Shown: piece by piece, positions 34,265 through 49,907 of the stretch
Layout of the letters: each line of letters begins with the position of its first letter
Numbering within the stretch: position 1 is the stretch's first letter
Assembly (NCBI RefSeq): GCF_000222485.1
Contig: NC_015914.1
Location: 5,810,001 to 5,874,000, forward strand
DNA: 64,000 nucleotides
DNA from: Cyclobacterium marinum DSM 745
GTDB lineage: Bacteria; Bacteroidota; Bacteroidia; Cytophagales; Cyclobacteriaceae
Reading direction: 5' to 3'
The notes under the pieces: model-generated
Database searches by the model: none
What the model was told of the DNA's origin: nothing
Seen by the model: the letters and a program-made list of their open reading frames with translations, nothing else
Translations under genes and position numbers: made by a program

Positions 34265-35044
34265 ATGTCGAAACAATTTCTGTTAATAGTAGGCCTTTGC
34301 GCATGCCTTTTTTCTTGCTCAAATCAAAATATGAATTTTAATAATAACCAAGTAATCGCCCATAGAGGGGCTTGGAAAACCAAACCTCATCCCCAAAATT
34401 CTTTGGCCTCATTGCAAGAAGCTTTTGACTTGGGTTGCACAGGATCAGAGTTCGATGTTTGGATGACATTAGATGGCATCCTTGTAGTCAATCATGATGC
34501 TGATCATCATGGAATGGTCATTGAAGAAACCAATTATGCAGACCTACTCAAAGAGCCCTTGTCAAATGGGGAGAAAATACCTACTGTAGAAGAATATTTA
34601 ACTTATGGAATGAAACAAAATAAGACTAAACTTATTTTTGAAATAAAGCCTTCAAGTATATCCAAGGAAAGAGGAATCGAACTTGCAGAGAAATCTGTAG
34701 CTGCCGTGAAAAAACTAGGTGCCGAAAATTGGGTAGATTATATCACTTTTGGTTATGAAATGGGACTTAAAGTAATTTCTTTAGACCCGGACGCTAATGT
34801 TGCCTACCTAATGGGCGACAAAACACCCCAAGAATTAAAAGACAATGGTTTTTTTGGCTTTGATTACAATATCAAAAAAGTGAAAGAAAATCCTCAATGG
34901 ATCAAGGAGGCTCATGACCTGGGTTTAACTGTTAATGTTTGGACAGTTAATAAAGAAGAGGATATGAAATGGTTAATGGATCAAAATGTAGAATTCATCT
35001 CTACTGACGAACCAGAATTATTATTTTCACTTATCAATCAATAG
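34265..35044 (+). CDS. Lipoprotein glycerophosphodiester phosphodiesterase (GDPD)
   Basis: A lipoprotein signal (LLIVGLCACLFSC-SN) precedes a GDPD domain. The signature is visible: VIAHRGAWKTKPHPQNSLAS (HR and EN-like positions, here QN), GSEFDVWMTLDG (ExD) and LVVNHDADHHG (His). The end is LTVNVWTVNKEEDMKWL. The enzyme cleaves glycerophosphodiesters to glycerol-3-phosphate and an alcohol. The usual HRG...PENT reads PQNS here, so one metal-binding acid is replaced by Gln, which may shift activity. It touches the phosphodiesterase gene (stop at 35044, next ATG at 35045). Confidence 0.86.
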   Translation: MSKQFLLIVGLCACLFSCSNQNMNFNNNQVIAHRGAWKTKPHPQNSLASLQEAFDLGCTGSEFDVWMTLDGILVVNHDADHHGMVIEETNYADLLKEPLSNGEKIPTVEEYLTYGMKQNKTKLIFEIKPSSISKERGIELAEKSVAAVKKLGAENWVDYITFGYEMGLKVISLDPDANVAYLMGDKTPQELKDNGFFGFDYNIKKVKENPQWIKEAHDLGLTVNVWTVNKEEDMKWLMDQNVEFISTDEPELLFSLINQ

Positions 35045-36652
35045 ATGAAATCGATCAGTAGAATAGGTTGTGTTTTTTTCTTGTTTACAATTGCTGCATT
35101 TATAGCCATTTCCTGTAATGAACCTCCAAAGTCTACTAAGAAAGTTAATCATATTATCTTAATAGGATTAGATGCTTTTGGAACGAGAGGCTTTCAAAAA
35201 GCCTCCACTCCCTATATGAATAATATGACAGAAAACGGAGCCATGGCTCCGTTTTCTCGTTGTTTGCTCCCAACAAACAGTTCTCCAAACTGGACGGCAA
35301 TGCTTACAGGAGTAGGGCCTTTGCAACATGGCGTTTATGACAACGATTGGGAAAGAGATAAAATAAAGTGGCCTCCTGTATTAACTACGAAAGAAGCTGT
35401 TTACCCAAGTTTAATTAACTGGGTAAAGGAACAAATTCCATCTTCCAAGGTTCATTTTTTTTATGAATGGGAAGGCTTGGCAAGATTATTTGACCTCAGT
35501 GAGGTCGACAAAATTTACCATGGAAAAAAAGGAGATATTGTTTTTGAAAAAGCAGTAGATGCTTTTTTTGAAGAGAAACCGGATTTTCTATTTCTAAACA
35601 TCGATGAAATTGACCATCATGGGCACCACGATGGCCATGATTCCAAAGCTTATTTCAATGCCATCACGCATTATGATAGTCTAATTGGAAATTTCACCCA
35701 AAGACTTGAAGAGGAAGGGCTTTTAAATGAAACTTTAATTATGATAACGGGTGACCACGGAGGTATCAATAAAGGACATGGAGGCACCACTTTAAATGAA
35801 TTAGAAATACCTATAATCCTTTATGGGGCCGGGGTAAAAAAAGGGTTAATCATCGACAAGCCATGCTATATTTATGACGTTCCGGTTACCTTAGCCTATG
35901 CTCTAGGCATTACTCCTCCCCTCGCAGGGATTGGTAGACCCATTCTTGAGGCTTTTGACACCAATAGTATCTCTGCTCCATATGTTCCAATGCCTTTGGT
36001 TTCTCCGGTTTCCGGTTTGTTTCCACAATCCCCTCTTTCGGTAGAAATAAATGTAGATGATGCTGAAGCCGAAATATTTTATTCTTTAGACGGATCCATA
36101 CCTAGCAAAGAATCAGGAATACCCTATGACAAGCCCATTCAAATTTTGAAAAACTCTATTGTAACTGCCGTAACCTATAAAAATGGAGCTTATAGCCGTG
36201 CAGAAGTGAACCATTATCGTATAGGGAACGGTAAAGACGGTAAAATTTCTTGGGAATACTTTGAAGGGAATTTTACTAAAATTCCAGATTTCACACGTTT
36301 GAAAGTTTTAAAATCGGGGAAAAGTAAAGAATTGAGTCTAACACATATCCCTCATCGACCAGATCATTTTGCGATTAGGTTTAAATGTACTTTGGATCTT
36401 CCTGTTTCAGGTACCTATAGATTTTATACCCAATCAGATGATGGAAGTAAAATCTTAATAGATAATAAGGTCCTCGTGGACAACGATGGCTCTCATTCAA
36501 GTACCTCAAAAAGCAACCCTATTGAATTGCAAAAAGGCCTACATTCTATGGAGGTTTGGTACTTTGAAGACAATGCCGGTGAAGAACTTGAAATATATAT
36601 CGAAGGACCAAATATTTCCAAACAAATCATTACGGATGAGTTTATCCAATGA
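35045..36652 (+). CDS. Exported alkaline-phosphatase-superfamily phosphodiesterase with PA14 domain
   Basis: After a lipoprotein-like signal (FTIAAFIAISC-NE) the catalytic domain shows LIGLDAFGTRGFQKAST, the nucleophile region LLPTNSSPNWTAMLTG, LNIDEIDHHGHHDG and ITGDHGGINKGHGG, all metal-binding features of the nucleotide pyrophosphatase/phosphodiesterase group. Residues about 315-395 form a chitobiase C-terminal-like beta domain (EIFYSLDGSIPSKES). The last 140 residues resemble a PA14 domain (SGTYRFYTQSDDGSKILIDNKVL). It begins one base after the GDPD stop, so the two act as a surface phosphodiester-degrading pair. Confidence 0.86.
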   Translation: MKSISRIGCVFFLFTIAAFIAISCNEPPKSTKKVNHIILIGLDAFGTRGFQKASTPYMNNMTENGAMAPFSRCLLPTNSSPNWTAMLTGVGPLQHGVYDNDWERDKIKWPPVLTTKEAVYPSLINWVKEQIPSSKVHFFYEWEGLARLFDLSEVDKIYHGKKGDIVFEKAVDAFFEEKPDFLFLNIDEIDHHGHHDGHDSKAYFNAITHYDSLIGNFTQRLEEEGLLNETLIMITGDHGGINKGHGGTTLNELEIPIILYGAGVKKGLIIDKPCYIYDVPVTLAYALGITPPLAGIGRPILEAFDTNSISAPYVPMPLVSPVSGLFPQSPLSVEINVDDAEAEIFYSLDGSIPSKESGIPYDKPIQILKNSIVTAVTYKNGAYSRAEVNHYRIGNGKDGKISWEYFEGNFTKIPDFTRLKVLKSGKSKELSLTHIPHRPDHFAIRFKCTLDLPVSGTYRFYTQSDDGSKILIDNKVLVDNDGSHSSTSKSNPIELQKGLHSMEVWYFEDNAGEELEIYIEGPNISKQIITDEFIQ

Positions 36653-36670: not shown

Positions 36671-37828
36671 CTATTTGATAACTGATCGGGGAATAGCAGC
36701 AGGAAGGCGACTTAACATTTCATTGTTTAAAAGCTGTGTGGCATTGGTGAAACTTGAAACATTGATTACATTGTTTTTTTGTCTTCCTATCAAAACCACT
36801 TCATCCCCTACTTCCACATTCTTAATATGCGTGATGTCTACCATAAATAAATTCATGTTAATTAGGCCTACAATTGGAGCTTTTTTCCCATGAATCAGTA
36901 CTTGCCCCCTATTGGATAGTGCCCTGGGATACCCATTGGAATATCCCAATGGAAGTACAGCAATCTTCATATTTTGAGTTGCCTGAAAGGCAGTACCATA
37001 ACCAATAAATTCACCTTGATCAACTGTTCTTATATCCATGATATCTGTTTTCCAGTTAAAAACTCTTTTCATTGTAGAGTCTGAGCTTTTATTGGTTTGG
37101 TGCAGGTGAGCATAATAAATATCAGGGCTAGGCCAAAACCCATATTGAGCCACTCCAATCCGTACCATATCATAAACCGTATCCTTCATGGCCAAGGCAG
37201 CAGCTGAGCAGGCGATATGTCGAATTTCAGGCAGTACTTTTTTCTCTTTACATGTTTTTAAAAACGCTTTGTATCTCTTGTGTTGCTGGTCAATTTTAAA
37301 TTGATTGGAGACACTTTCGGCACCACCAAAATGGGTACATAGTCCTTCAAATTTTAACCATTCAGCATGCTGTTTTAAAAAAGCCAGGGCCTTTGGGAAT
37401 TCTTGGGCATGCATCCCTGTTCGGTTGGCACCGGTTTCTACTTCCAAATGTACTAAAGCACGCTTACCCACCTTTCTGGCTTCCTCCAAAACTTTAGCAA
37501 GTCGATTAAAATTATAAACGAAAAAAGAAATCCCATTAGATATGGCCCACCCCAAATCTTCTTCATAGATAATTCCCATGATCAGTACCTGACTTTCTGC
37601 TTTGCATACACTCATAACTTGTTCCGCCTCAAAGGAAGAAGCAACACAAAAATGATTGATTCCACATCTTTCAGCCATAGGGACGAATGCTTCAATCCCA
37701 TGTCCATAAGCATTGGCTTTAACCACTGATGAGAGAATGGGCTTGTCTCCAATCTTCTTTCTGATAAAATTGATATTGCCTTTATAGGCAACTTGATTTA
37801 ATTCTATTCTTGAGGAATGTTTTACCAT
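36671..37828 (-). CDS. alr: Alanine racemase-like PLP enzyme (divergent)
   Basis: The N-terminal barrel carries the PLP-Lys motif SSVVKANAYGHGIEAF. The C-terminal domain has GEFIGYGTAFQA and VAVLPLGYSNGYPRALSN-type motifs. The ATG at 37828 (MVKHSSRIELNQ) overlaps the previous stop (ATGGTAA), giving strict coupling; the in-frame start 13 codons upstream is less likely. Two departures from standard Alr stand out: VETGANRTGMH where TGM(x)RxG is usual, and GLINMNLFMVDI where GR(I/V)xMDQxMVD is usual. It may therefore racemise a different amino acid for a dedicated pathway. Confidence 0.82.
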   Translation of the reverse strand: MVKHSSRIELNQVAYKGNINFIRKKIGDKPILSSVVKANAYGHGIEAFVPMAERCGINHFCVASSFEAEQVMSVCKAESQVLIMGIIYEEDLGWAISNGISFFVYNFNRLAKVLEEARKVGKRALVHLEVETGANRTGMHAQEFPKALAFLKQHAEWLKFEGLCTHFGGAESVSNQFKIDQQHKRYKAFLKTCKEKKVLPEIRHIACSAAALAMKDTVYDMVRIGVAQYGFWPSPDIYYAHLHQTNKSSDSTMKRVFNWKTDIMDIRTVDQGEFIGYGTAFQATQNMKIAVLPLGYSNGYPRALSNRGQVLIHGKKAPIVGLINMNLFMVDITHIKNVEVGDEVVLIGRQKNNVINVSSFTNATQLLNNEMLSRLPAAIPRSVIK

Positions 37829-39816
37829 TGTTTTTTTATTTCCAGCCAGGTATAGGATTTTCCCCAACTATTCTTAGCAAGTTCTTTTACTTTATCCACC
37901 TCATTTTGAGGTACCTCTTCCATTTTTGCGGTAGCATCAAGTGTGTTGTAATGAAAAGCGTAAATCCTCCCGGCAAATTCATGAATAGGAAGAGAAGATT
38001 CACCGTGATTTTCTCCATTACCATAAACTGATGGGCAAATTCCCTGCCCCCAATTTTGTCGTCCTTCATTGTTAGGATTCAAGAAGTAAGCCCTTGTTAT
38101 TCCTTGGGGGTCTTTTTCTACACGAAGTAAAGAGATCGCATGAAACCCCAGCATCTCTCCTTTAGCAGAGGTAATAAAAATCCCCACGGGATTTGGATAT
38201 ACGAGGCGGTGCCCTCCATTGTACTCAGGATGACACATTGCATAAAAAATCTTGACAAATCCTTCGAAATCAACGATTGCATTGGACAGATAATCATAGG
38301 CAGATGCAAAACCAATTTGAATCCACTGCCCATATAAGCCAGGATTTACCCATTTGTGTGGATCCTCACCCCTACCTGAAGCCCTTCTCATCATTTCATT
38401 GTAGATTTTATCCAGCATAGGCACCAAGGTTACAGATACCGCATCCAACTGATGATCCAAGTTTTGAACCAACCCTAAAGCTGTTTCCGAATACTTTATC
38501 TCTTTGCCTTCAAACCGAAAACTCAAATCATTATGGACCGCAGCAGCATGTACCATATGAATCAATTTCGCCGGTGCATGTTGACTCCACATGCTGATTC
38601 CTCTGGAACTTTGACAAGTGGGATTATTCCCTTGGCCAACCCCAAGCGGCTGACCTAGAATTCTTAGCAAAGCCCCAATTAAAAATTGTTTTGGGCTTAC
38701 CTCTGCCTTTGCACTCCCAACAGATTTTATAATTCGTTCTTTAACATTTGGATGTAAGGAGATGGTCTGAAGATTATGCAAACCGGCCCTGACAGCTGAT
38801 CGGGACAAAACGCCATTTTCCAGACTTTTGGCCAAGCCATAGATACATTGGGCATTGCTAGGATGGATTACATCTACAATTAAGGTGCAAACAAACTCTT
38901 GATACTCACTAAACAAAGCCAATCCGGATTCATTGAGTCCCAAGCATCTGCCTACCACTTCATAATGCTTATTTTTTACTAAAAATAAAAGAAGACTGGC
39001 ATGATAGCTACTCACCAATCCATTGGAAAGCATCCCCTCGCTCATCTGATCTGCTTCAACGATGAGCTGAGCTTCAGACAAAGTTTTTAAATAATCCTCA
39101 TACTCCTGATAGGTTTTTCCTTCTGTACCAATTGATGGGCGATATATAGACCGCTGAAAAGCCAATAAGTTTTCATCAGCAGGGTCTTTGGGATCAAGGT
39201 CTATTTTCTCTTTGACTAAGGCTATGATTCGCCTTTGCTTTTCCGTAACAACAGGCCGTTGTTCGCAAATCAACACAAGTTCATCCACTAAAGAAGCCTT
39301 CACTTTTGACAATTGGATTTGGTCTGAAATAAAGCCAAACAAGGAATGCACCTTGTTTAGCTCATGTTCACTCATCAATAGTCGGGTTTCTTCCTGGGGT
39401 TCGTTAAAAACAAACTCAAGGTTCAATACCAACACCTCTTGCAAATAAATCTCAGCCTCTTCCATTGAATTTTCGGAAGCCTGAATTTCACCACGTGCAA
39501 TGGCAAGCATCCTGAGTTCACTAAGCAGTTCATAGGTAGAATTAGGATGTCCACTCTTAAATGTACCGTTCACCAATTGCGGTACCAACTTCGAGGGGTT
39601 TTCCCAAGGCGTTCCTTTAAATATCCCGGCTTGGTTTAGGGCTGCTATTCGTTTGTAAATTTGAAGAATACCTTCTTTGTTTCCACACCAAGCGTCAAGT
39701 TGTCCAACTACTTTCTTTACTTTCTCTTCCCTTGTCAGCACTGTGGCTGATTGATAGCTCTCAAACAACTCATCAAAGGATTCAAGTTTATTTTTTGAGA
39801 TTATATTATCTTGCAT
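37822..39816 (-). CDS. Unrecognised 664-aa protein with possible cysteine-peptidase-like C-terminal domain
   Basis: No family is recognised. Residues 1-380 are alpha-helical and charged, possibly repeats. From 390 on, a conserved-looking core appears: GVGQGNNPTCQSSRGISMW with Cys401 preceded by Gln395, then GEMLGFHAISLLRVEKD with His559, then AYFLNPNNEGRQNWGQG with Asn580/582. The order Gln, Cys, His, Asn resembles papain-like fold enzymes (peptidase, transglutaminase or amidase); this is an inference. There is no signal peptide. It lies 9 bp after the ATP-grasp gene's end and overlaps the racemase start, so all three act together. Confidence 0.7.
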   Translation of the reverse strand: MQDNIISKNKLESFDELFESYQSATVLTREEKVKKVVGQLDAWCGNKEGILQIYKRIAALNQAGIFKGTPWENPSKLVPQLVNGTFKSGHPNSTYELLSELRMLAIARGEIQASENSMEEAEIYLQEVLVLNLEFVFNEPQEETRLLMSEHELNKVHSLFGFISDQIQLSKVKASLVDELVLICEQRPVVTEKQRRIIALVKEKIDLDPKDPADENLLAFQRSIYRPSIGTEGKTYQEYEDYLKTLSEAQLIVEADQMSEGMLSNGLVSSYHASLLLFLVKNKHYEVVGRCLGLNESGLALFSEYQEFVCTLIVDVIHPSNAQCIYGLAKSLENGVLSRSAVRAGLHNLQTISLHPNVKERIIKSVGSAKAEVSPKQFLIGALLRILGQPLGVGQGNNPTCQSSRGISMWSQHAPAKLIHMVHAAAVHNDLSFRFEGKEIKYSETALGLVQNLDHQLDAVSVTLVPMLDKIYNEMMRRASGRGEDPHKWVNPGLYGQWIQIGFASAYDYLSNAIVDFEGFVKIFYAMCHPEYNGGHRLVYPNPVGIFITSAKGEMLGFHAISLLRVEKDPQGITRAYFLNPNNEGRQNWGQGICPSVYGNGENHGESSLPIHEFAGRIYAFHYNTLDATAKMEEVPQNEVDKVKELAKNSWGKSYTWLEIKKQW

Positions 39817-39824
39817 ACAATTAA

Positions 39825-41045
39825 TTAATGGTAAAAATCTACATTTTCGTAATGTAACAATAGTTCTGCCATACGATCCGGGTCATCCCCTTTAAAGTTC
39901 ACAGTACCAAAATGGTTGCCAAAACCATCTCTTGAATTAACTTTTTGACTTGTTAATGGAGGGACCAAATTATGGTCTAAGAAGAAAGATTCTTCTTTAA
40001 GTTCTTCAGGAATCACCAAACGTGAAATTTGATTTTTGTGGGGATAAATCATTACATTTCCATAAAATGTTTTTGGTCTTGCATCTAATGGAGGTAACAG
40101 TTCATTAAGCTCTTCCTCGGTTAGCTCAGGGTCATGGCAACAAACAAATGCAGCCAATGCATCAAACCCGTAAGCTTGACTGCAAAGTTCCAAAATATGT
40201 CCGCCGGGAATTCTGCAGGCCACCTCACCAAAGCTTAATTCATCATTTTCAGTTAAAAACCATTCCGGATGAATCATTCCATATTGGATGCCAAATAGAT
40301 CCACCAACTTCTGCATCTCCTTCATAATCTTCTCCCTTTTGGTATGAAGGTAATTCCCCTCCGGAATAAAATTAGAATAACCCAATTTCACATACTCTGT
40401 GATATTTAAGAATCTGATTTTACCTCCATGAACAAAAGCCTCACAAGAGAATTCTTTTCCAGGCAAGTGACTCTCTGCCAAGCAAGGGAAATCATCGTCT
40501 TGACATTTCTCTTCAATATCTGCCTTAGATTTTAGAAGGCGGTGCCCTACGGTTCCAGCTGAGGCAAAAGGCTTGATATGGACCCAACTATCTTCTTCAC
40601 CGTCTACTTGCAAATTGGCCTGGTTAAGCCTATTCATAAAATTCACAACACCTTCTTTATTGTAAACCTCTTCAAAAAGACCAACTCTTAAACCCCCAAT
40701 TAAGGCTTTCCTCTTCATCATTGCCTTGTTTCTAAAGAGAAATGCCCTATTCAAAACTTTAGGATCATCTCTGTACAATGAGTTCAATGCACCGGCCCAT
40801 TCCACTGTTTCTTCAAAAAGAGGAACCGCCACATCCACATGATAAGGTTCAAGTTTGTCCTTTAAATCCAAAGAATTTGATGAATCACTCCATTCGTCAA
40901 ACTGGTACGGAACAAAAGGTATATTATTTTCTTGGGCATAATTTTCAAAGTCCGGAAATGAAACAACTACAAAAGATTTGTTGAGTTTTTGCATACTTTC
41001 TATAACAGGTAAACTCCAACCCATTAGTGCAAAACATTTTGCCAT
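39825..41045 (-). CDS. ATP-grasp carboxylate-amine ligase-like protein
   Basis: I start at ATG 41045 (MAKCFALMGWSLP); a TTG nine codons upstream is unlikely. The pre-ATP-grasp domain covers residues 1-110. The ATP-grasp core shows VHIKPFASAGTVGHRLLKS (ATP-binding Lys and flexible loop), AESHLPGKEFSCEAFVHGG and the metal-binding LSFGEVACRIPGGHI. These match the carbamoyl-phosphate-synthase-like ligase group that couples amino acids or peptides to carboxylates. It is the first gene of a leftward three-gene operon with an unknown protein and a racemase. The substrate is unknown. Confidence 0.85.
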   Translation of the reverse strand: MAKCFALMGWSLPVIESMQKLNKSFVVVSFPDFENYAQENNIPFVPYQFDEWSDSSNSLDLKDKLEPYHVDVAVPLFEETVEWAGALNSLYRDDPKVLNRAFLFRNKAMMKRKALIGGLRVGLFEEVYNKEGVVNFMNRLNQANLQVDGEEDSWVHIKPFASAGTVGHRLLKSKADIEEKCQDDDFPCLAESHLPGKEFSCEAFVHGGKIRFLNITEYVKLGYSNFIPEGNYLHTKREKIMKEMQKLVDLFGIQYGMIHPEWFLTENDELSFGEVACRIPGGHILELCSQAYGFDALAAFVCCHDPELTEEELNELLPPLDARPKTFYGNVMIYPHKNQISRLVIPEELKEESFFLDHNLVPPLTSQKVNSRDGFGNHFGTVNFKGDDPDRMAELLLHYENVDFYH

Positions 41046-41603
41046 TTTTATTGTTATTTGGTTCAATTTCAATAGGCAACAAAAAATAGGCTAAAGTCAA
41101 TTTATTTTCAGATATAAATAAAATATCCTATTAAACTTCATTAAAATCTTTAAATAATCAATTTGTAACGGAAAAGGTCAAATTTAATACCAAATACAAC
41201 GGCACCTCAACTTCCAATAAATAAGAGGTAGGTTAAAAATTTTAGTCTAATGATCAAATCGTTCTCAACCTAAATCGCAATTCATTCACATTATATCCTT
41301 ATTTTACTTGTATTTCTGATAAAATAAATAAATATTTGCACGGTTTAGCATGAAGAAAGAAGTTAACATATCAAAAAAAAATTATCCGGCTCATAATTAC
41401 CTTTTTGAGTATCGGATATTGTGTCCTATTAAAACCTACAGGACCTTATTTAGGGCTTAGTCCCTACACTCTTTCATTATATCCTATGTGGATATTTCTA
41501 TTTCCAGAAGCATTTCAATCATTTATTTCAACTAATTCTCTTAAGGCTGACACTGTCAATTGCAATTTGATGGGAGATGACGGGCAGCCAAAAAAATGCT
41601 ACA
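41046..41603. other. Divergent intergenic region between ATP-grasp operon and arginine operon
   Basis: It holds the promoters of both operons. A small hairpin TAGGG-cttagt-CCCTA lies at 41451-41466. The open frame 41405-41611 has no start of its own that looks real and overlaps the first arginine gene, so I do not call it a gene. No ARG-box-like palindrome was recognised. Confidence 0.6.
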
Positions 41604-42293
41604 ATGTTTGACCAAAAATTTATAATAAAACCTGCGGGAGAGGAGCATTGCCAATATGCAGAAACCATTACAGATGAAATGGAGCGATCTGCACAGGCCA
41701 GAGGCACCGGTATAGCCAAACGATCCCCAGAATACATAAAGACTAAAATGCGGGAAGGTAAAGCTGTTATTGCGCTTACCAAAACCGGGGACTGGGCAGG
41801 TTTTTGTTACATTGAAGCTTGGGGCCATGGGAAATTTGTTGCCAATTCCGGCTTAATAGTGTCTCCCGACTATAGAAAATTCGGCTTGGCCAGAGAAATT
41901 AAAAAGGAAGTTTTCAAATTAAGTCGCAAAAAATACCCTGAGTCCAAGATATTTGGATTGACAACTGGAGCTGCCGTAATGAAAATAAATTCAGAATTAG
42001 GGTATTATCCGGTTAGCTATTCCGACCTCACCACAGATGAGGAATTTTGGAAGGGATGCCAAAGCTGCGTTAATTATCCCATACTTATGAGCAAGAACAG
42101 GTCTAATTGTTTGTGTACGGCCATGCTCTACGAACCCAAAAATGTAAAGAAGGCAGAGCAAAAGAAACGTTCTTCCGAATTCAAAAAGAATCTGAGTCTT
42201 TTTGAGCGATTAATCAATATCAAACGGGCCATGTTTCTTAATTTTGCAAAAGGGAAAAAGGCAATTGAAAAAGTTAAAGATAAAGTAAACTAA
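41604..42293 (+). CDS. GNAT-type N-acetyltransferase, probable N-acetylglutamate synthase of Bacteroidetes arginine clusters
   Basis: I chose the ATG at 41604 because the conserved part starts almost at once (KFIIKPAGEEHCQYAETITDEM); an ATG nine codons earlier (41577) is possible. Family features are ARGTGIAKRSPEYIKTKM, GKAVIALTKTGDWAGFCYIE, the acetyl-CoA loop in GLIVSPDYRKFGLAREIKK and Cys-rich segments GCQSCVNYPIL and NCLCTAML. The same gene heads arginine clusters in Bacteroides and relatives, where it is thought to acylate glutamate in place of classical ArgA/ArgJ. The basic C-terminal tail of about 50 residues is unexplained. It lies 56 bp before argG. Confidence 0.83.
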   Translation: MFDQKFIIKPAGEEHCQYAETITDEMERSAQARGTGIAKRSPEYIKTKMREGKAVIALTKTGDWAGFCYIEAWGHGKFVANSGLIVSPDYRKFGLAREIKKEVFKLSRKKYPESKIFGLTTGAAVMKINSELGYYPVSYSDLTTDEEFWKGCQSCVNYPILMSKNRSNCLCTAMLYEPKNVKKAEQKKRSSEFKKNLSLFERLINIKRAMFLNFAKGKKAIEKVKDKVN

Positions 42294-42349
42294 AAATAAT
42301 AAATGTGTTTCCTCTGGGCAACACATTTTAATTAAGACAATTTTATAAT

Positions 42350-43555
42350 ATGAAAAAAGTAGTTTTAGCATATAGCGGAGGCTTAGACACCACTTTCTGC
42401 GCCATTCACCTTAGCAAAGAAAAAGGCTATGAAGTACATGCAGTATTGGTCAACACCGGAGGATTTGAACAGGAGGAGTTAGACAATATAGGTGAAAGGG
42501 CAAAAAAACTAGGTGTTGCTTCATTTAAGGTGCTTGATGTGGTTTCTACTTATTACAATGAAGTCATAAAGTTTTTGATTTTTGGAAATGTATTAAAAAA
42601 CCAAACCTATCCTTTGTCTGTAAGTGCTGAAAGAATTTTACAGGCCAAAGCCTTGGCTGAATACAGTAAAAGCATAGGGGCAACTTCCATTGCTCATGGT
42701 AGCACAGGCGCAGGAAACGATCAGGTAAGGTTTGATATGATTTTCCACACCATCATTCCTGATGTTGAAATTATCACTCCAATTAGAGATTTAAAATTAA
42801 GTAGAGAAGAAGAAATTTCATTCTTGAAAAAACATGGAGTAAGCATGAATTTTGAAAAAGCTGCTTACTCAATAAATAAAGGGATTTGGGGAACATCTGT
42901 CGGTGGTAAGGAAACACTTACCTCTGATCAAGCCTTGCCGGAAAGTGCTTACCCAACTCAAGTAAGCGCAACGCAACCTGAGTCCATAACACTGACCTTT
43001 AATAAGGGTGAATTGGTAGCTGTAAATGGGGAGAAATTTGATCACCCTGTCCAAGCTATTTTGAAAGTTCAGGAATTGGCAAGTCCATTCGGCATTGGTA
43101 GAGACATCCATGTTGGAGACACCATCATAGGCATAAAAGGACGCGTTGGCTTCGAAGCAGCAGGTCCTTTGGTAATAATTAAAGCACATCAGCTATTAGA
43201 AAAACATACCCTAACCAAGTGGCAAAGCTATTGGAAAAACCAAATCTCTGAGTTTTATGGAAATCATTTGCATGAAGGTCATTATCTGGATCCTGTCATG
43301 CGAAACCTAGAAGCATTTATGACGGACACTCAAACTTATGTAAGTGGTGAAGTGAAAGTTTTACTTGCCCCATACAGATTCAGCATGATAGGCGTTTCTT
43401 CAAAACATGACCTAATGTCTTCCAAGTTTGGCAGCTATGGTGAAATGAACAAAGGTTATACTGCTGAGGATGTAAAAGGTTTTACAAAAATATTGGGTAA
43501 TCAAACTGCTATTTTCCATAAAGTAAATGAAAGTTTAGGCCATGAAAATGATTAA
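42350..43555 (+). CDS. argG: Argininosuccinate synthase
   Basis: The PP-loop ATPase motif VVLAYSGGLDTTFCAIHL starts the protein, followed by the HGSTGAGNDQVRFD substrate loop and GKETLTSDQALPESAYP. The 401-aa length is normal. ArgG joins citrulline and aspartate at the expense of ATP to argininosuccinate. The gene ends inside the beginning of argC (overlap of about 14 bp), which shows coupling. It stands second in the operon, although its reaction is the penultimate one. Confidence 0.95.
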   Translation: MKKVVLAYSGGLDTTFCAIHLSKEKGYEVHAVLVNTGGFEQEELDNIGERAKKLGVASFKVLDVVSTYYNEVIKFLIFGNVLKNQTYPLSVSAERILQAKALAEYSKSIGATSIAHGSTGAGNDQVRFDMIFHTIIPDVEIITPIRDLKLSREEEISFLKKHGVSMNFEKAAYSINKGIWGTSVGGKETLTSDQALPESAYPTQVSATQPESITLTFNKGELVAVNGEKFDHPVQAILKVQELASPFGIGRDIHVGDTIIGIKGRVGFEAAGPLVIIKAHQLLEKHTLTKWQSYWKNQISEFYGNHLHEGHYLDPVMRNLEAFMTDTQTYVSGEVKVLLAPYRFSMIGVSSKHDLMSSKFGSYGEMNKGYTAEDVKGFTKILGNQTAIFHKVNESLGHEND

Positions 43556-44510
43556 AACAGCTGTAGTTGGTGCTGCGGGATATACAGGAGGAGAACTGTT
43601 ACGTTTATTGGTACATCACCCAAATGTGGACTTGCTATGGATTCATAGCAACAGCCAAAAAGGTAAAAAATTAGAAGAGGTTCATCCGGATTTAATTGGG
43701 GATGCTTCCCTTACCTTTACTGATGAGATTGACCCCAATAATCTTGACCTTGTTTTTTTATGCTTACCACATGGACAGGCCAAACCGTTTTTAGAAAAAC
43801 ATGCTTTTGTTGAGGAAACAAAAATCATTGACCTGAGTACGGATTATAGGAATGAAAGCAATGGTTTTATTTATGGTTTACCCGAAGTAAACCGGGAAAA
43901 AATTAAAGGTGCTCAGAAAATAGCCAATCCCGGTTGTTTTGCTACCGGAGTTCAACTGGCTCTAGTACCTGCTATTCAGCAGCACTGGATAAAAAGCTCA
44001 CTGCATGTCACAGGAATTACGGGAAGCACCGGTGCCGGTAAAAAGCTTTCAGAAACCACTCATTTTAGTCAAAGAAACCAAAATGTCTCGGTTTATAAAT
44101 TATTTACCCATCAGCACCTGAAAGAGATCAACCAAACTTTCAAGCAGCTGACTCCAGGATTTGACCAGCAGGTATTATTTGTACCTTACAGGGGTAATTT
44201 TTCTCGTGGTATTTGGGTTACAGCGTACTTCCCGTTTGATGGAAGTTTGGAAGAAGCTTATGAAGCCTATTCTAAATTTTACCAAGATGCAGCTTATACC
44301 TATGTTAGCAAAAATGACATTGACTTAAAGCAAGTGGTTAATACCAACAAGTGTTTGGTGCATCTGAAAAAGGAAGCAGGCCAACTTGTTATTTATTCCG
44401 CCATAGACAACCTTTTAAAAGGTGCATCAGGGCAAGCTGTACAGAACATGAATCTGGCCTTTGGTCTGGATGAAAAAACAGGTTTACAACTAAAAAGTAC
44501 AGCTTTTTAA
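43542..44510 (+). CDS. argC: N-acetyl-gamma-glutamyl-phosphate reductase
   Basis: The NADPH-binding start KTAVVGAAGYTGGELLRLL, the HGQAKPFL loop and the catalytic Cys motif NPGCFATGVQLALVPA are clear, with 322 aa the usual length for this group. Two possible starts two codons apart (43542 and 43548) both lie inside the end of argG. It reduces acylglutamyl phosphate to the semialdehyde. In this pathway the acyl group could be acetyl or succinyl; the sequence of ArgC does not say which. Confidence 0.95.
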   Translation: MKMIKTAVVGAAGYTGGELLRLLVHHPNVDLLWIHSNSQKGKKLEEVHPDLIGDASLTFTDEIDPNNLDLVFLCLPHGQAKPFLEKHAFVEETKIIDLSTDYRNESNGFIYGLPEVNREKIKGAQKIANPGCFATGVQLALVPAIQQHWIKSSLHVTGITGSTGAGKKLSETTHFSQRNQNVSVYKLFTHQHLKEINQTFKQLTPGFDQQVLFVPYRGNFSRGIWVTAYFPFDGSLEEAYEAYSKFYQDAAYTYVSKNDIDLKQVVNTNKCLVHLKKEAGQLVIYSAIDNLLKGASGQAVQNMNLAFGLDEKTGLQLKSTAF

Positions 44511-44562
44511 ATAAAACGATTATCTGGCAACCAGAACCGGCTGCCTACAAATTACATACTAT

Positions 44563-45708
44563 ATGCAATTGTTTGACGTCTATCCTCTAATGAATGTCAC
44601 CCCTGAAAAAGCAAGTGGTGTTCACTTATGGGACAATACAGGGCAGAAGTACCTGGATTTATATGGTGGGCATGCTGTAATTTCAATAGGACATTCACAT
44701 CCTCACTATGTCAAAAGAATAAGTGACCAACTGAACAAGATAGGTTTCTATTCCAATTCTGTTCAAATCCCTTTACAAAGGGAGATGGCAAGCAAACTAG
44801 GAGAGCTTTCAGGCTATGATGCTTATAAATTATTTCTTTGCAATTCAGGAGCTGAAGCCAATGAGAATGCTTTAAAATTGGCCTCCTTTGAAACAGGGAA
44901 AGCGGGTGTTATTGCCTTCCACGGTGCATTCCATGGCCGAACTTCCGGAGCCGTTGCTATTACGGATAACCAAAAGATTGTGGCCCCTTTTAATAGTGGT
45001 CATAAAGTTTTCTTTGAAGCATTGGGGGATTTAGGTGCGGTAGAACAGAGGCTGAAGGATGGAGAAATAGCAGCGGTGATCATAGAAGGAATTCAAGGTG
45101 TAAATGGTATACAGGTCGCTGAACCCGGATTCCTCAGTGGACTATCCACACTCACCAAAAAATACGGTGCCAAATTGATTCTTGATGAAGTGCAGTCGGG
45201 CTATGGGCGGACAGGTAAGTTTTTCGCTCATCAATGGACAGCAGAATTGGCCCCTGATCTGATTACAATAGCTAAAGGTATGGGAAATGGTTTTCCCATT
45301 GGGGGCGTATTGATACATCCGGATATTGAGGCTAAATTTGGCCTCTTGGGCACCACCTTTGGTGGAAATCACCTGGCATGTGCTGCGGGCCTTGCAGTAT
45401 TGGAAATTTTGGAAGAAGAAAACCTAATGGCCAATGCTGAACAATTGGGAGATTTTCTTATTCAAGAATTAAATGAAGGCTTTCCTGAAATCCTTGCTGT
45501 TAGGGGAAAAGGGTTAATGATAGGATTAGACCTAAAAAATGAAGCTGCCCCCTACCGGTCTGAGTTAATCAAAAGTCATCACATTTTTACCGGAAGTGCC
45601 GCTTCAAAGAATACCATTCGCATCCTTCCCCCTCTCTGTGTGAAGAAGGAAGAGTTGCAGCTTTTTCTTAAGAGTTTAAGAGAGGTAATTAATCGAATGA
45701 ATCCCTAA
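44563..45708 (+). CDS. argD: Acyl-ornithine aminotransferase ArgD
   Basis: This class III PLP aminotransferase shows HLWDNTGQKYLDLYGGHAVISIGH at the start, FLCNSGAEANENALKLA, LILDEVQSGYGRTGKFFAHQ and the PLP-Lys motif LITIAKGMGNGFPIGGVL. The 381-aa length is typical. It converts the acylated glutamate semialdehyde to acyl-ornithine with glutamate as the amino donor. The gap to argC is 52 bp and the gap to argF' is 7 bp, so it is inside one operon. Confidence 0.95.
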   Translation: MQLFDVYPLMNVTPEKASGVHLWDNTGQKYLDLYGGHAVISIGHSHPHYVKRISDQLNKIGFYSNSVQIPLQREMASKLGELSGYDAYKLFLCNSGAEANENALKLASFETGKAGVIAFHGAFHGRTSGAVAITDNQKIVAPFNSGHKVFFEALGDLGAVEQRLKDGEIAAVIIEGIQGVNGIQVAEPGFLSGLSTLTKKYGAKLILDEVQSGYGRTGKFFAHQWTAELAPDLITIAKGMGNGFPIGGVLIHPDIEAKFGLLGTTFGGNHLACAAGLAVLEILEEENLMANAEQLGDFLIQELNEGFPEILAVRGKGLMIGLDLKNEAAPYRSELIKSHHIFTGSAASKNTIRILPPLCVKKEELQLFLKSLREVINRMNP

Positions 45709-45715
45709 AACAGTC

Positions 45716-46657
45716 ATGAAAAATTTCACAAAATTTGAAAATATTGACCTTGCCAATAAATTGATTGACAAAGCATTGGCTTTCAAAAAAGACCCACTGG
45801 TAAACGCAGTCAAAGGTAATGGCAAGCGTATTGGATTGATTTTCTTAAACCCGAGCCTTAGAACAAGAATGAGCACCCAACTCGCTGCATCCAATCTCGG
45901 CGTAGAGAGTTTTGTCTTGAATATGGACAAAGAAAGTTGGGCCTTAGAAATGCAGGATGGGGCTGTCATGAACCAGAACAAGGTGGAACATATAAAGGAT
46001 GCCGCAGCTGTTTTGGGTGGATATTTTGACATTTTAGCCATCAGGGCCTTCCCTACCCTTACCAATAAGGATGAGGACACCAATGATTTCGTTATCAATC
46101 AATTTATAAAATACTCAGGTGTGCCCGTTGTTAGTCTGGAAAGCGCCATCAGGCACCCTTTGCAGAGTTTGGCAGACATGGTGACCATCAAGGAAAATTT
46201 TAAAGAAAAAAGGAAACCTAAGGTTCTACTTACTTGGGCACCACATATCAAAGCAATTCCACATGCTGTGGCAAATTCTTTTTCTGAATGGTCCATTGGC
46301 TGCGGACATGACTTGACAATCACACATCCTCATGGATACGAATTGGACAGCAAATTTACAAAAGGAGCTAAAATCGAGTATGATCAAACCAAAGCGCTTG
46401 CGGAGGCAGATTTTGTTTATGTAAAAAATTGGAGTGCTTTTAGCCCTTACGGTAAAATTTTAAGCGTACCAGGAGACTGGCTGCTCAATGACGCCAAATT
46501 TGGTGACAATAAACATGCAAAAGTTATGCATTGCTTACCGGTTAGAAGAAACTTGGAACTAAGTGATGAAATTTTGGATAGTGAGCGTAGCCTTGTTCAA
46601 AATCAAGCTAAAAACAGAATTTTCGCTGCTCAATCAGTAATCGACAGCATGCTTTAA
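45716..46657 (+). CDS. argF': Acyl-ornithine transcarbamylase (ArgF'), acetyl/succinyl specificity uncertain
   Basis: Carbamoyl-phosphate binding motifs are NPSLRTRMST (residues 45-54), IRHPLQSLADM and the late HCLPVRRNLELSDE. The length and the AFPTLTNKDEDTND stretch place it with Bacteroidetes ArgF' rather than ornithine transcarbamylase. It carbamoylates acyl-ornithine to acyl-citrulline. The specificity loop is AVMNQNKVEHIKDA with Val90. Succinyl-ornithine enzymes have Pro at 90 and acetyl-ornithine enzymes have Glu at the equivalent place, so the substrate cannot be assigned from this site. It sits 7 bp after argD and 12 bp before argB. Confidence 0.92.
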   Translation: MKNFTKFENIDLANKLIDKALAFKKDPLVNAVKGNGKRIGLIFLNPSLRTRMSTQLAASNLGVESFVLNMDKESWALEMQDGAVMNQNKVEHIKDAAAVLGGYFDILAIRAFPTLTNKDEDTNDFVINQFIKYSGVPVVSLESAIRHPLQSLADMVTIKENFKEKRKPKVLLTWAPHIKAIPHAVANSFSEWSIGCGHDLTITHPHGYELDSKFTKGAKIEYDQTKALAEADFVYVKNWSAFSPYGKILSVPGDWLLNDAKFGDNKHAKVMHCLPVRRNLELSDEILDSERSLVQNQAKNRIFAAQSVIDSML

Positions 46658-46669
46658 TACTATTTCTTA

Positions 46670-47455
46670 ATGGATATCAGCGTAATTAAAATCGGGGGAA
46701 ATGTAATTGACCATCAGGAAAACTGTTCAGCATTTCTTAAGTTATTTGCTCATTTCCCCGGAGTAAAAATACTTGTACATGGAGGCGGTGTATTGGCTAG
46801 CCGTTTGGGTAGTTCATTGGGCATCAAACCTAATATGCACAATGGCAGAAGGATTACAGACAAGGAAACCTTGGACGTCGTGACCATGGTATATGCTGGA
46901 CTGATCAATAAAAACTTGGTAGCTGAACTTCAATCCTATGGTCAAAATGCCATCGGACTTACCGGAGCCGATGGCAATGCCATCACTTCTATTAAAAGGC
47001 CTATTAAGGAAGTCGACTTTGGTTTTGTTGGGGATGTTACAAAAGTAAACACCTCATTATTAGAAACCTTATTGGAACAAAATATCGCACCGGTATTTTC
47101 CGCCATCACTCATGACAACAAAGGGCAATTGCTAAACACCAATGCAGATACCATCGCCTCTGAATTGGCTACAGCATTGGCTACCAAACACAAGGTTGGG
47201 CTCTACTTTTGCTTTGATAAAAAAGGGGTACTTATGGATGCTGACAAACCTGAATCTTTGGTCCCGTTGATCAATGAAGATATTTTTAAAAAATTACTTG
47301 AAGAAAAGGTGATCCATTCCGGAATGATTCCAAAATTGGAAAATGCTCTCAATGCATTGAACAAAGGTGTGGCCAATGTTTGGATGGGTTTACCCGAAAA
47401 CTTATTGTTGGCTGCCAAAGGAGAAGAGGCCGGAACCATCATCAAACCTTTGTAA
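46670..47455 (+). CDS. argB: Acylglutamate kinase ArgB
   Basis: The amino-acid-kinase fold is clear: VIKIGGNVIDHQENC at the N-terminus, VHGGGVLASRLGSSLG, IGLTGADGNAITS and LNTNADTIASELATALA. The 261-aa length is typical of the family. It phosphorylates the acylated glutamate, the usual arginine feedback step. In the middle of the operon it lies 12 bp after argF' and 41 bp before the deacylase gene. An N-terminal extension, often linked to arginine-sensitive hexameric kinases, is not present. Confidence 0.93.
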   Translation: MDISVIKIGGNVIDHQENCSAFLKLFAHFPGVKILVHGGGVLASRLGSSLGIKPNMHNGRRITDKETLDVVTMVYAGLINKNLVAELQSYGQNAIGLTGADGNAITSIKRPIKEVDFGFVGDVTKVNTSLLETLLEQNIAPVFSAITHDNKGQLLNTNADTIASELATALATKHKVGLYFCFDKKGVLMDADKPESLVPLINEDIFKKLLEEKVIHSGMIPKLENALNALNKGVANVWMGLPENLLLAAKGEEAGTIIKPL

Positions 47456-47496
47456 ATTAATCTTAGAACAGCCTTTACCCCTTTATTAATAAAAAA

Positions 47497-48582
47497 TTGG
47501 AAGATTTAGCAAAATTAAAAATTGAGGCGATTGAATTACTTAAGGGCCTTATCAGTACCCCATCGCTAAGTAAAGCAGAGGATAAAACCGCTGAACTCAT
47601 CGCAGAATTTTTCTTTAAAAAAGGAATTGAAACGCATAGAAAAGGGAACAATATATGGGCCTATAATAAGCAATTTGATGATTCCTTGCCAACAATTTTG
47701 CTGAATTCGCATCATGACACCGTAAAACCCAACCGTGGTTATACCATTGACCCACACACACCTTTAGTAAAGGAGGGAAAGTTATTTGGTTTGGGATCGA
47801 ATGATGCAGGTGGTTGCTTGGTTAGCCTAATGGCTACTTTTGCATTTTACTATGATCAAACTATACCTGTAAACCTTGTGCTTGTGGCTTCTGCAGAAGA
47901 AGAAATAAGTGGTCGAGGAGGTATTGAATCTGTTCTCAGTGAACTTCCAGATTTAGAAGTTGCCATTGTAGGTGAACCAACCTTACTAAAGATGGCCGTT
48001 GCAGAAAAGGGGCTAATGGTTATAGATGCCGTGATCAGTGGTGTAGCAGGCCATGCTGCCCGTGAAGAAGGTACCAATGCAATCTATGAAAGTCTTGAAG
48101 ATTTATTAACGATTAGAGATTTCAAATTCAAAAAAGAGTCCCCATTCTTAGGGCCAAATAAGGTTTCGGCCACCATCATCACGGCCGGAAGTCAACACAA
48201 TGTGGTTCCCGACAAGTGCACCTATACGCTCGATGTTCGGGTAACTGATGCCTATACTTTGGAAGAAGCTTTTGCTGAATTAAAAAGCAATTTAAAAGCC
48301 GAACTAACCCCTAGGTCACTACGATTAAATTCTTCTTCCATTAAGGAGGACCATCCTATGGTAAGCACTGCAAAAGAGATGGGGTTAGAATTATACGGTA
48401 GCCCCACATTATCGGATCAGGCATTAATTCCTTTTCCTTCTGTAAAAATCGGACCCGGTGATTCTGCAAGGTCTCATACAGCAGATGAGTTTATTTTCGT
48501 TGAAGAAATTAAGGAGGGAATATCATTATATGTATCACTCTTGAAAAACTATTTTTCAAATACCAAAAGAAACACCCAATGA
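47497..48582 (+). CDS. argE: M20 family deacylase (ArgE-like)
   Basis: The zinc-peptidase motifs are LLNSHHDTVKPNRG, FGLGSNDAGGCLVS, LVASAEEEISGRGG and a terminal GPGDSARSHTADEFI; the dimerisation domain starts at GVAGHAAREEGTNA. The start is a TTG at 47497 because no upstream in-frame ATG exists and the frame has no earlier Met near the N-terminus; translation from TTG gives EDLAKLKIEAIELL. In this pathway it should remove the acyl group from acyl-citrulline. The stop overlaps the argH start (ATGA). Confidence 0.9.
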   Translation: MEDLAKLKIEAIELLKGLISTPSLSKAEDKTAELIAEFFFKKGIETHRKGNNIWAYNKQFDDSLPTILLNSHHDTVKPNRGYTIDPHTPLVKEGKLFGLGSNDAGGCLVSLMATFAFYYDQTIPVNLVLVASAEEEISGRGGIESVLSELPDLEVAIVGEPTLLKMAVAEKGLMVIDAVISGVAGHAAREEGTNAIYESLEDLLTIRDFKFKKESPFLGPNKVSATIITAGSQHNVVPDKCTYTLDVRVTDAYTLEEAFAELKSNLKAELTPRSLRLNSSSIKEDHPMVSTAKEMGLELYGSPTLSDQALIPFPSVKIGPGDSARSHTADEFIFVEEIKEGISLYVSLLKNYFSNTKRNTQ

Positions 48583-49907
48583 AACTTTGGCAAAAAGATA
48601 AAACCAGTAAAAAAGAAGTAGAAACTTTTACCATAGGCCGAGATCCTGAATTTGATATTTTACTTGCCCCATTTGATGTTACAGGATCCATGGCTCATGC
48701 CACCATGTTGGCATCCATTGGGTTGCTAACCCACAATGAGTTGGAAGTATTGAAAAAAGGCTTAACAGAAATCCGTGATGAGATTGCAGAAGGAAAGTTT
48801 AGCATAGCTCCCGGGGTAGAAGATGTACACAGTCAAGTGGAGTTTTTGCTTACAGAGCGGTATGGAGATGTAGGGAAAAAATTACATAGCGGAAGATCCA
48901 GAAATGACCAAGTTTTGGTGGATTTAAAGCTTTATTATAGAAAGGCAATAAAAGAGACAGTAACCGAAATAGAAAATCTATTCAATTTACTAACCCAGCT
49001 AGCCGAAAAACACAAAGATGACTTAATGCCGGGTTATACCCATACCCAATTGGCTATGCCTTCCTCTTTTGGATTATGGTTTGGCTCATTGGCTGAAGGT
49101 TTGGCAGAAGATATGGAACTATGGCAAACGGCTTATCGCCTGTCTAACAGAAACCCCTTAGGTTCAGCTGCAGGATACGGTAGTTCTTTTCCTCTTAACA
49201 GAACAATGACCACAGAACTTCTAGGTTTTGGGGACATGCATTACAATGTGATCAATGCTCAAAATAGTAGAGGGAAAACAGAAAAAACATTATCATTTGC
49301 AATGGCAGGTACTGCCGGCACTCTCAACCGCTTGGCTACAGATGCGATTATGTTTATGAACCAACATTTTGGATTCATAAGTTTTCCTGATGAGCTAACC
49401 ACAGGTTCTAGCATTATGCCACATAAAAAGAACCCTGATGTATTTGAATTAATCCGTGCAAAGACCAATCAAATCCAAAGTTACCCTCAGCAAATCATGA
49501 TGTTGCTTACAAACCTGAGTACCGGTTACCACAGAGACTTACAATTGCTCAAGGAGACCACCTTTCCTGCTTTTGAACAACTGAATGATTGTTTGAAAAT
49601 AACTCAATTGATGCTTGAAAACATCAGCATCAAAAAGGATCTTTTGGATGATAAATTTTATGCATATTTATTTAGTGTAGAAGAAGTCAACAGGTTGGTA
49701 TTGGAAGGTATGCCATTTAGAGATGCCTACAAAAAAGTGGGAATGGATATTGAAAAAGGGGATTTTACTCCGGGTAAAAAAATCAAACACAGCCATGAAG
49801 GCAGCATTGGACAACTTTGTTTGCCTGCTATCAAAAATAAAATGGAAAAATCAAAGGTAAACTTTGAAGAAGCGGAAAAAGCTGAAGAAAAGCTTTGGAC
49901 AATATAA
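48579..49907 (+). CDS. argH: Argininosuccinate lyase
   Basis: The fumarase-superfamily signature TGSSIMPHKKNPDVFELIRAKT is present, with upstream motifs GVEDVHSQVEFLL, LHSGRSRNDQVLVD and GYTHTQLAMPSSFGLWF. The 442-aa length is ordinary. It splits argininosuccinate into arginine and fumarate. The start overlaps the argE-like stop by 4 bp (ATGA), and it ends 3 bp before the end of the convergent small gene. It closes the arginine operon. Confidence 0.95.
   Translation: MKLWQKDKTSKKEVETFTIGRDPEFDILLAPFDVTGSMAHATMLASIGLLTHNELEVLKKGLTEIRDEIAEGKFSIAPGVEDVHSQVEFLLTERYGDVGKKLHSGRSRNDQVLVDLKLYYRKAIKETVTEIENLFNLLTQLAEKHKDDLMPGYTHTQLAMPSSFGLWFGSLAEGLAEDMELWQTAYRLSNRNPLGSAAGYGSSFPLNRTMTTELLGFGDMHYNVINAQNSRGKTEKTLSFAMAGTAGTLNRLATDAIMFMNQHFGFISFPDELTTGSSIMPHKKNPDVFELIRAKTNQIQSYPQQIMMLLTNLSTGYHRDLQLLKETTFPAFEQLNDCLKITQLMLENISIKKDLLDDKFYAYLFSVEEVNRLVLEGMPFRDAYKKVGMDIEKGDFTPGKKIKHSHEGSIGQLCLPAIKNKMEKSKVNFEEAEKAEEKLWTI

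Follow-up and report, generated by a model that had tools for sequence, protein, structure and literature searches.

A candidate ornithine-amide operon in Cyclobacterium marinum: an ATP-grasp ligase, a protein with a predicted papain fold and a divergent racemase

What might be made by three tightly packed genes of Cyclobacterium marinum that encode a putative ATP-grasp ligase, a protein of no named family (here called X) and a racemase? The genes lie in a 64,000-nucleotide stretch of DNA, analysed as a whole and referred to as the window, from a genome consisting of a single contig of 6,221,273 bases. An earlier note on this DNA proposed that they form a biosynthetic operon.

Layout and distribution of the locus

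All three tightly spaced genes were present, on the minus strand, within the range that the earlier note had given:

39825..41045, minus strand: putative ATP-grasp carboxylate-amine ligase, an ORF of 406 aa from ATG
37822..39816, minus strand: protein X, family without a name, an ORF of 664 aa
36671..37828, minus strand: alanine-racemase-family PLP enzyme, 385 aa from ATG (PF01168 and PF00842, TIGR00492)
37822..37828, minus strand: 7-bp overlap in which X stops and the racemase starts, ATGGTAA
41077..41100, minus strand: conserved 24-base element upstream of the ligase, 30-55 bases before its start

The ligase and racemase ORFs are also open from TTG codons at 41072 and 37867, respectively. 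The gap between ligase and X, given earlier as 9 bp, is 8 bp (39817-39824), and the second junction is the 7-bp overlap that had been described. The identical overlap was found in all 55 comparable loci, i.e., those in which the alignments reached the C-terminal residue of X and the first residue of the racemase. This observation argues for translational coupling under selection.

Among the loci fetched, the closest relatives came from Cyclobacterium species. The 24-base element was kept, with one variable base, in the window and in 10 Cyclobacterium loci, and is a probable promoter or operator. A wider regulon was dismissed since a search of the genome that allowed up to 3 mismatches gave a single occurrence of the element; none was seen by eye in the 300 bases preceding the ArgB gene discussed below. 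The best matches outside Cyclobacterium were in L018 (5 mismatches) and L033 (6 mismatches). No RNA element was detected at the trio: at gathering scores, Rfam matched the window only at a SAM riboswitch (RF00162, 31055-31164, 80.1 bits), which precedes the gene for an O-acetylhomoserine sulfhydrylase and a metX-like gene. Convergent with the racemase is a pair of genes (34265-36652) encoding a GDPD-family protein and then a phosphodiesterase/sulfatase-like protein that carries PA14 and chitobiase C-terminal domains. The trio was also considered as a defence system, which was ruled out by the lack of a PADLOC match at E<=0.1 for any of the three proteins.

Co-occurrence of the trio elsewhere, which had been suggested as a check on the operon, was borne out. 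We found 112 loci with X in species genomes and kept 80, in which the ligase adjoined X in 76 and the racemase in 66. In the four loci lacking the ligase, the match started late in X, and three of these were at a contig edge. Of the 14 loci lacking the racemase, 11 were Bacilli-type (ten with Bacilli labels, and L085), and the others were L073 (a Gemmatimonadetes-labelled MAG), L059 (an Oligoflexia-labelled MAG) and L052. The contig ended directly past X in L052 and in one Bacilli-type locus, L076. All eleven Bacilli-type loci had a GNAT-like gene divergently upstream of the ligase (e.g., L082:6012-6578), with a Pfam GNAT match and no NCBIfam match at E<=1e-10. Two labels disagreed with locus type: L085 is labelled Chryseobacterium, yet its locus is Bacilli-type, and L035 is a Rickettsiales-labelled MAG contig, yet its locus is Marinoscillum-type.

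Among 148 Cyclobacteriaceae genomes, X occurred in 34 and the ligase (scored at E<=1e-60) in the same 34. X was found in 4 of 395 genomes of a phylum sample and in 32 of 200 of a Planococcus-centred order sample, two of the latter by partial matches only. Nine genomes of the Planococcus-centred sample had a second X-like copy close by, and in some Bacilli both X-like enzymes carry the catalytic residues described below. In a Halomonas replicon, ligase and X were adjacent, with no racemase among the flanking ORFs listed. Because neither Bacilli nor Halomonas has a racemase beside the pair, ligase and X are the core two-gene module; the racemase is an addition of the Bacteroidota, and some Bacilli carry an additional X. 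The family is large: at least 2716 database proteins, of 7997 candidates scored, were related to the Halomonas copy of X at E<=0.001.

Separately, the genes directly after the racemase in a Marinoscillum-type and a Marivirga locus (L032:11128-11970 and L023:10939-11724) showed a similar layout. Their products (~150 aa, with an apparent membrane segment and, by eye, a coiled-coil-like tail) had no Pfam match over the cut-off.

The three encoded proteins

The ligase scored 24.4 bits against PF13535, slightly below the cut-off of 27, and some of its close relatives carry a precomputed PF13535 annotation. It also matched the L-amino acid ligase 4wd3 in the PDB (E 2.3e-6).

X, which the earlier note had described as unrecognised, had no match to Pfam or NCBIfam at E<=1. 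Searches against PDB sequences returned weak matches (ribosomal L5, E 0.25, and, in a further search, 4l82, E 0.83), and membership of a known family was rejected on these grounds. When 54 catalytic domains of the family, including four paralogues (alignment A2), were scanned for known families, matches were weak and scattered, with a best E of 0.018. The following features were assigned in X:

37936..38703, minus strand: predicted papain-fold region of X, ~residues 372-627, the range aligned with calpain and staphopain in the model
38632..38634, minus strand: codon of Gln395, invariant in 54/54 catalytic domains
38614..38616, minus strand: codon of Cys401, proposed nucleophile, invariant in 54/54
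38140..38142, minus strand: codon of His559, invariant in 54/54
38077..38079, minus strand: codon of Asn580, invariant in 54/54

The papain-like order of these four residues had been read correctly from the window, and all four were also invariant in the 58 rows of a further alignment (A1). Invariance in both alignments rules out a chance pattern. The Gln-Cys spacing of 6 is that of papain, and we infer that Gln395 is the papain-type oxyanion-hole Gln. Eight matches to the residue pattern in viral contigs were followed as possible viral copies of X, and none was related to it.

The AlphaFold model of X (pLDDT 89.9) agreed with this reading: the C-terminal half is predicted to adopt a papain fold and the N-terminal half to be long and helical. 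The papain-fold region modelled separately gave a pLDDT of 88.7. Papain-fold structures (calpain and staphopain) headed both structure comparisons, although Foldseek gave no match at E<=0.001. One listed structure, the PUF-like protein 5svd, aligned to the helical half instead, and the fold of another, 8ssk, was not evident from its title. BtrH, transglutaminases and glutathionylspermidine amidase were absent among the structure matches listed.

A biosynthetic role in making an amide or peptide is the best reading of the trio. The papain-fold relatives in the structure lists were mostly hydrolases, which suits another arrangement: the ligase would make an amino-acid conjugate that X hydrolyses, the module storing and releasing a metabolite, in the manner of glutathionylspermidine synthetase/amidase. 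Ligase and amidase pairs with this logic are known. A purely degradative enzyme would be more easily lost than X, which was kept in all 34 ligase-bearing Cyclobacteriaceae genomes; X is also co-translated with the racemase, and the two X-like enzymes of some Bacilli keep their catalytic residues. Storage and release thus seems to us unlikely, if still to be weighed seriously, and the retention of X in 34 of 34 genomes favours transfer of the acyl group over its cleavage.

The racemase of the trio passes the alr model (TIGR00492, 283.1 bits, cut-off 168). Like alanine racemase, it retains the PLP lysine, the catalytic Tyr and the PLP-binding Arg, roles that we take over from known Alr. It differs in three motifs, ADG being replaced by SNG, CMDQ by NMN(L) and the Tyr of the C-terminal PRxY by Val (IPRSV), and in its operon with the ligase and X. 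The SNG and NMN changes were present in at least 97% of 63 sequences at most of their positions. The earlier description of the motifs as non-standard therefore stands for these three, but not for the Glu that replaces the usual Lys of the H-x-K motif: the MurF-Alr fusion of the same genome has Glu as well, and the substitution was dropped as a mark of specificity. This fusion (NCBIfam PRK11930, 964 bits, cut-off 804) carries canonical ADG and CMD motifs, and a further Alr-like gene is located at 1.28 Mb. A search for a second alr, as had been suggested, was thus successful, and the trio racemase is not the sole alr of its genome. The Alr-like gene (L090:8477-11456) shares the E-for-K and MN features of the trio racemase and is on the same strand as its neighbours, genes of the M23 and M20 peptidase families.

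Enzymes of the racemase family usually serve cell-wall synthesis, and this raises the possibility that the ligase modifies a peptide stem or a protein with an amino acid (in Bacteroidota its D form), which X then removes or transfers; the long, predicted helical N-terminal half of X would then bind the target. However, the pair lacks an adjoining racemase in Bacilli and Halomonas, and no cell-wall gene family recurred beside the trio among the clusters that could be named. We regard cell-wall or protein modification as quite improbable.

Ornithine genes and saline habitats

Of the 66 loci with a racemase, 9 had an ArgB-ArgD-ArgC-ArgJ set, whole or in part, next to the trio. Four arrangements were seen, three of them with both groups on the same strand. 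In loci of the Marinoscillum type (L032, L034, L035 and L038), ArgD, ArgC and ArgJ followed the trio on the same strand, and ArgB was recognised in three of the four. In Saprospirales, ArgJ lay 32-33 bp before the ligase, within a full ArgB-D-C-J set in L054 and at the contig start in L051. In Phaeodactylibacter, the Arg genes came after the racemase: all four in L069, with 32-33 bp between the racemase and ArgB, and ArgC and ArgJ in L070. In L055 the set was divergent from the trio. The C. marinum genome has a separate set (L089:8472-12759), 1.13 Mb from the trio, each gene of which exceeds its NCBIfam cut-off.

The window also holds an arginine operon (41577-49907), which in Cyclobacterium stands beside the trio and is divergent from it, with genes for GNAT, ArgG, ArgC, an ArgD-like protein, a carbamoyltransferase, ArgB, an ArgE/DapE-like protein and ArgH. 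The carbamoyltransferase was closest to the N-acetylornithine type (277 bits, slightly below the cut-off of 288). The route through this enzyme releases no free ornithine. Judged from these genes, arginine synthesis here appears to follow the acetylornithine route, with no need for free ornithine, and the ArgB-D-C-J set therefore looks like a separate ornithine source. On the same gene content, two arginine/ornithine routes coexist in this genome.

Across the 148 Cyclobacteriaceae genomes, X and ArgJ occurred together in 28 and were both absent from 103, with X alone in 6 and ArgJ alone in 11 (Fisher p 1e-15, kinship ignored). Counted by genus, both were present in 16, X alone in 4, ArgJ alone in 6 and neither in 58 (p 4e-9, kinship again ignored). 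ArgJ was missing from 6 of the 22 genomes behind named X loci, some of which are evidently among the 148; the six were Marivirga, Ekhidna, Mangrovivirga, Marinigracilibium and two Planococcus.

Lifestyle may contribute to this association. Of the 34 Cyclobacteriaceae genomes with X, 26 had BCCT transporters, compared with 32 of the 114 without X (p 6e-7, kinship ignored), and ArgJ tracked them as well (28 of 39 ArgJ-positive and 30 of 109 ArgJ-negative genomes). X and ArgJ are both tied to BCCT, which points to lifestyle as a shared factor. The ArgB-D-C-J set could then serve polyamines, ornithine lipids or arginine, while the trio uses no ornithine and the link reflects shared lifestyle and ancestry. 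The association of ArgJ with BCCT fits this explanation, as do the 11 of 39 ArgJ-positive genomes without X, the 6 of 22 X genomes without ArgJ, and an ornithine/arginine-decarboxylase-like gene on the strand opposite ArgJ, 3.4 kb away from it, in the C. marinum genome. Against it stand the four arrangements that link the set physically to the trio, three of which are same-strand, and the persistence of the X-ArgJ association within BCCT-positive genomes (21 both, 5 X only, 7 ArgJ only, 25 neither) and BCCT-negative genomes (7, 1, 4 and 78). We therefore find an ornithine set unrelated to the trio distinctly unlikely, and continue with ornithine as a partner of the ligase.

Named hosts of X are mostly marine, soda-lake or otherwise saline-habitat or halophilic organisms, and some X-bearing Bacilli are soil isolates. 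Among the best 120 relatives of the Halomonas X, all named rows were Halomonas, Vreelandella or Halomonadaceae. Ectoine was set aside as an explanation: no ectoine synthase match was found in the C. marinum genome, and of the 148 genomes 3 had matches over the cut-off and 5 at E<=0.001. The available portions of two papers on salt in Halomonas elongata (PMC9006882, PMC10960403) mention no genes of this kind; the species may lack them. Taken alone, a product that serves life in salt is possible, and we lean somewhat against it; of all the steps proposed below, this one is the weakest.

A possible pathway and its known parallels

We propose, tentatively and with a little less than even confidence, that the three genes form a single, translationally coupled operon, and that its product, a small amide or peptide containing ornithine, serves life in salt. 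The separate ArgB-ArgD-ArgC-ArgJ set would supply free ornithine. The ATP-grasp enzyme would turn a carboxylate into an acyl phosphate and couple it to an amine, with ornithine as one of the partners. X, perhaps an acyltransferase (or amidase), would load the acyl group onto Cys401, aided by His559, Asn580 and Gln395, and hand it to a second amine, a transacylation comparable with that of phytochelatin synthase on glutathione; transfer to water would be less likely. In the Bacteroidota version, the racemase would provide one building block in its D form. The product, perhaps an osmolyte, would aid life in salt; the simplest case is a compatible solute. Free ornithine is cationic, and such an osmolyte would need its charge masked or balanced.

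Several known systems resemble parts of this scheme. Phytochelatin synthase (C83; Nostoc Alr0975, 2bu3, 6tjl), which acts on glutathione, is among the closest, but X has a long helical N-terminal half in its model and an operon with a ligase, and neither X nor the 54 catalytic domains matched PF05023 at E<=1. The third catalytic residue is Asp in phytochelatin synthase, compared with Asn in X. Glutathionylspermidine synthetase/amidase joins a ligase and a Cys amidase acting on one amide, and is linked to basic nitrogen metabolites. None of its Pfam families matched X at E<=1, and here ligase and X are separate genes. In butirosin biosynthesis, BtrJ is an ATP-grasp ligase. According to the available part of PMC10318531, BtrH is a papain-fold acyltransferase, and the resemblance to our locus lies in an ATP-grasp ligase that would work with such an enzyme. 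PF14399, used for comparison with BtrH, gave no match at E<=1 to X or the 54 catalytic domains, and, unlike in butirosin, no carrier-protein gene was recognised beside the trio among ORFs of at least 70 aa.

By analogy with these systems, a ligase with a papain-fold enzyme is an already known kind of pair; X falls outside the Pfam families of the parallels, which would make the trio a new version of that pairing. The trio is not described in the available parts of PMC2922099, PMC12838360, PMC1224877, PMC10318531, PMC9006882 and PMC10960403, and no description was found in the accessible portion of the literature searched, which did not include the amidoligase survey of Iyer and others (2009).

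In its fullest form, the proposal would describe a new osmolyte or stress-metabolite pathway common to marine Bacteroidota, planococci and Halomonas, in which the ligase makes an ornithine amide, a transacylase with a papain fold, from a new family, completes it, and Bacteroidota introduce a D-residue through a re-tuned racemase. We consider this complete version rather unlikely as it stands. The family nevertheless comprises at least 2716 proteins and has no Pfam or NCBIfam model that matches the window copy. Halomonas sp. TD01, a biotechnology organism, is among the listed carriers of an X copy. A two-gene cluster of ligase and predicted papain-fold enzyme should be easily expressed and assayed, making a direct search for the product feasible. 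If the product is an osmolyte, one more pathway would join a short list; if it is not, the papain fold would still have been put to a new use next to an ATP-grasp ligase.
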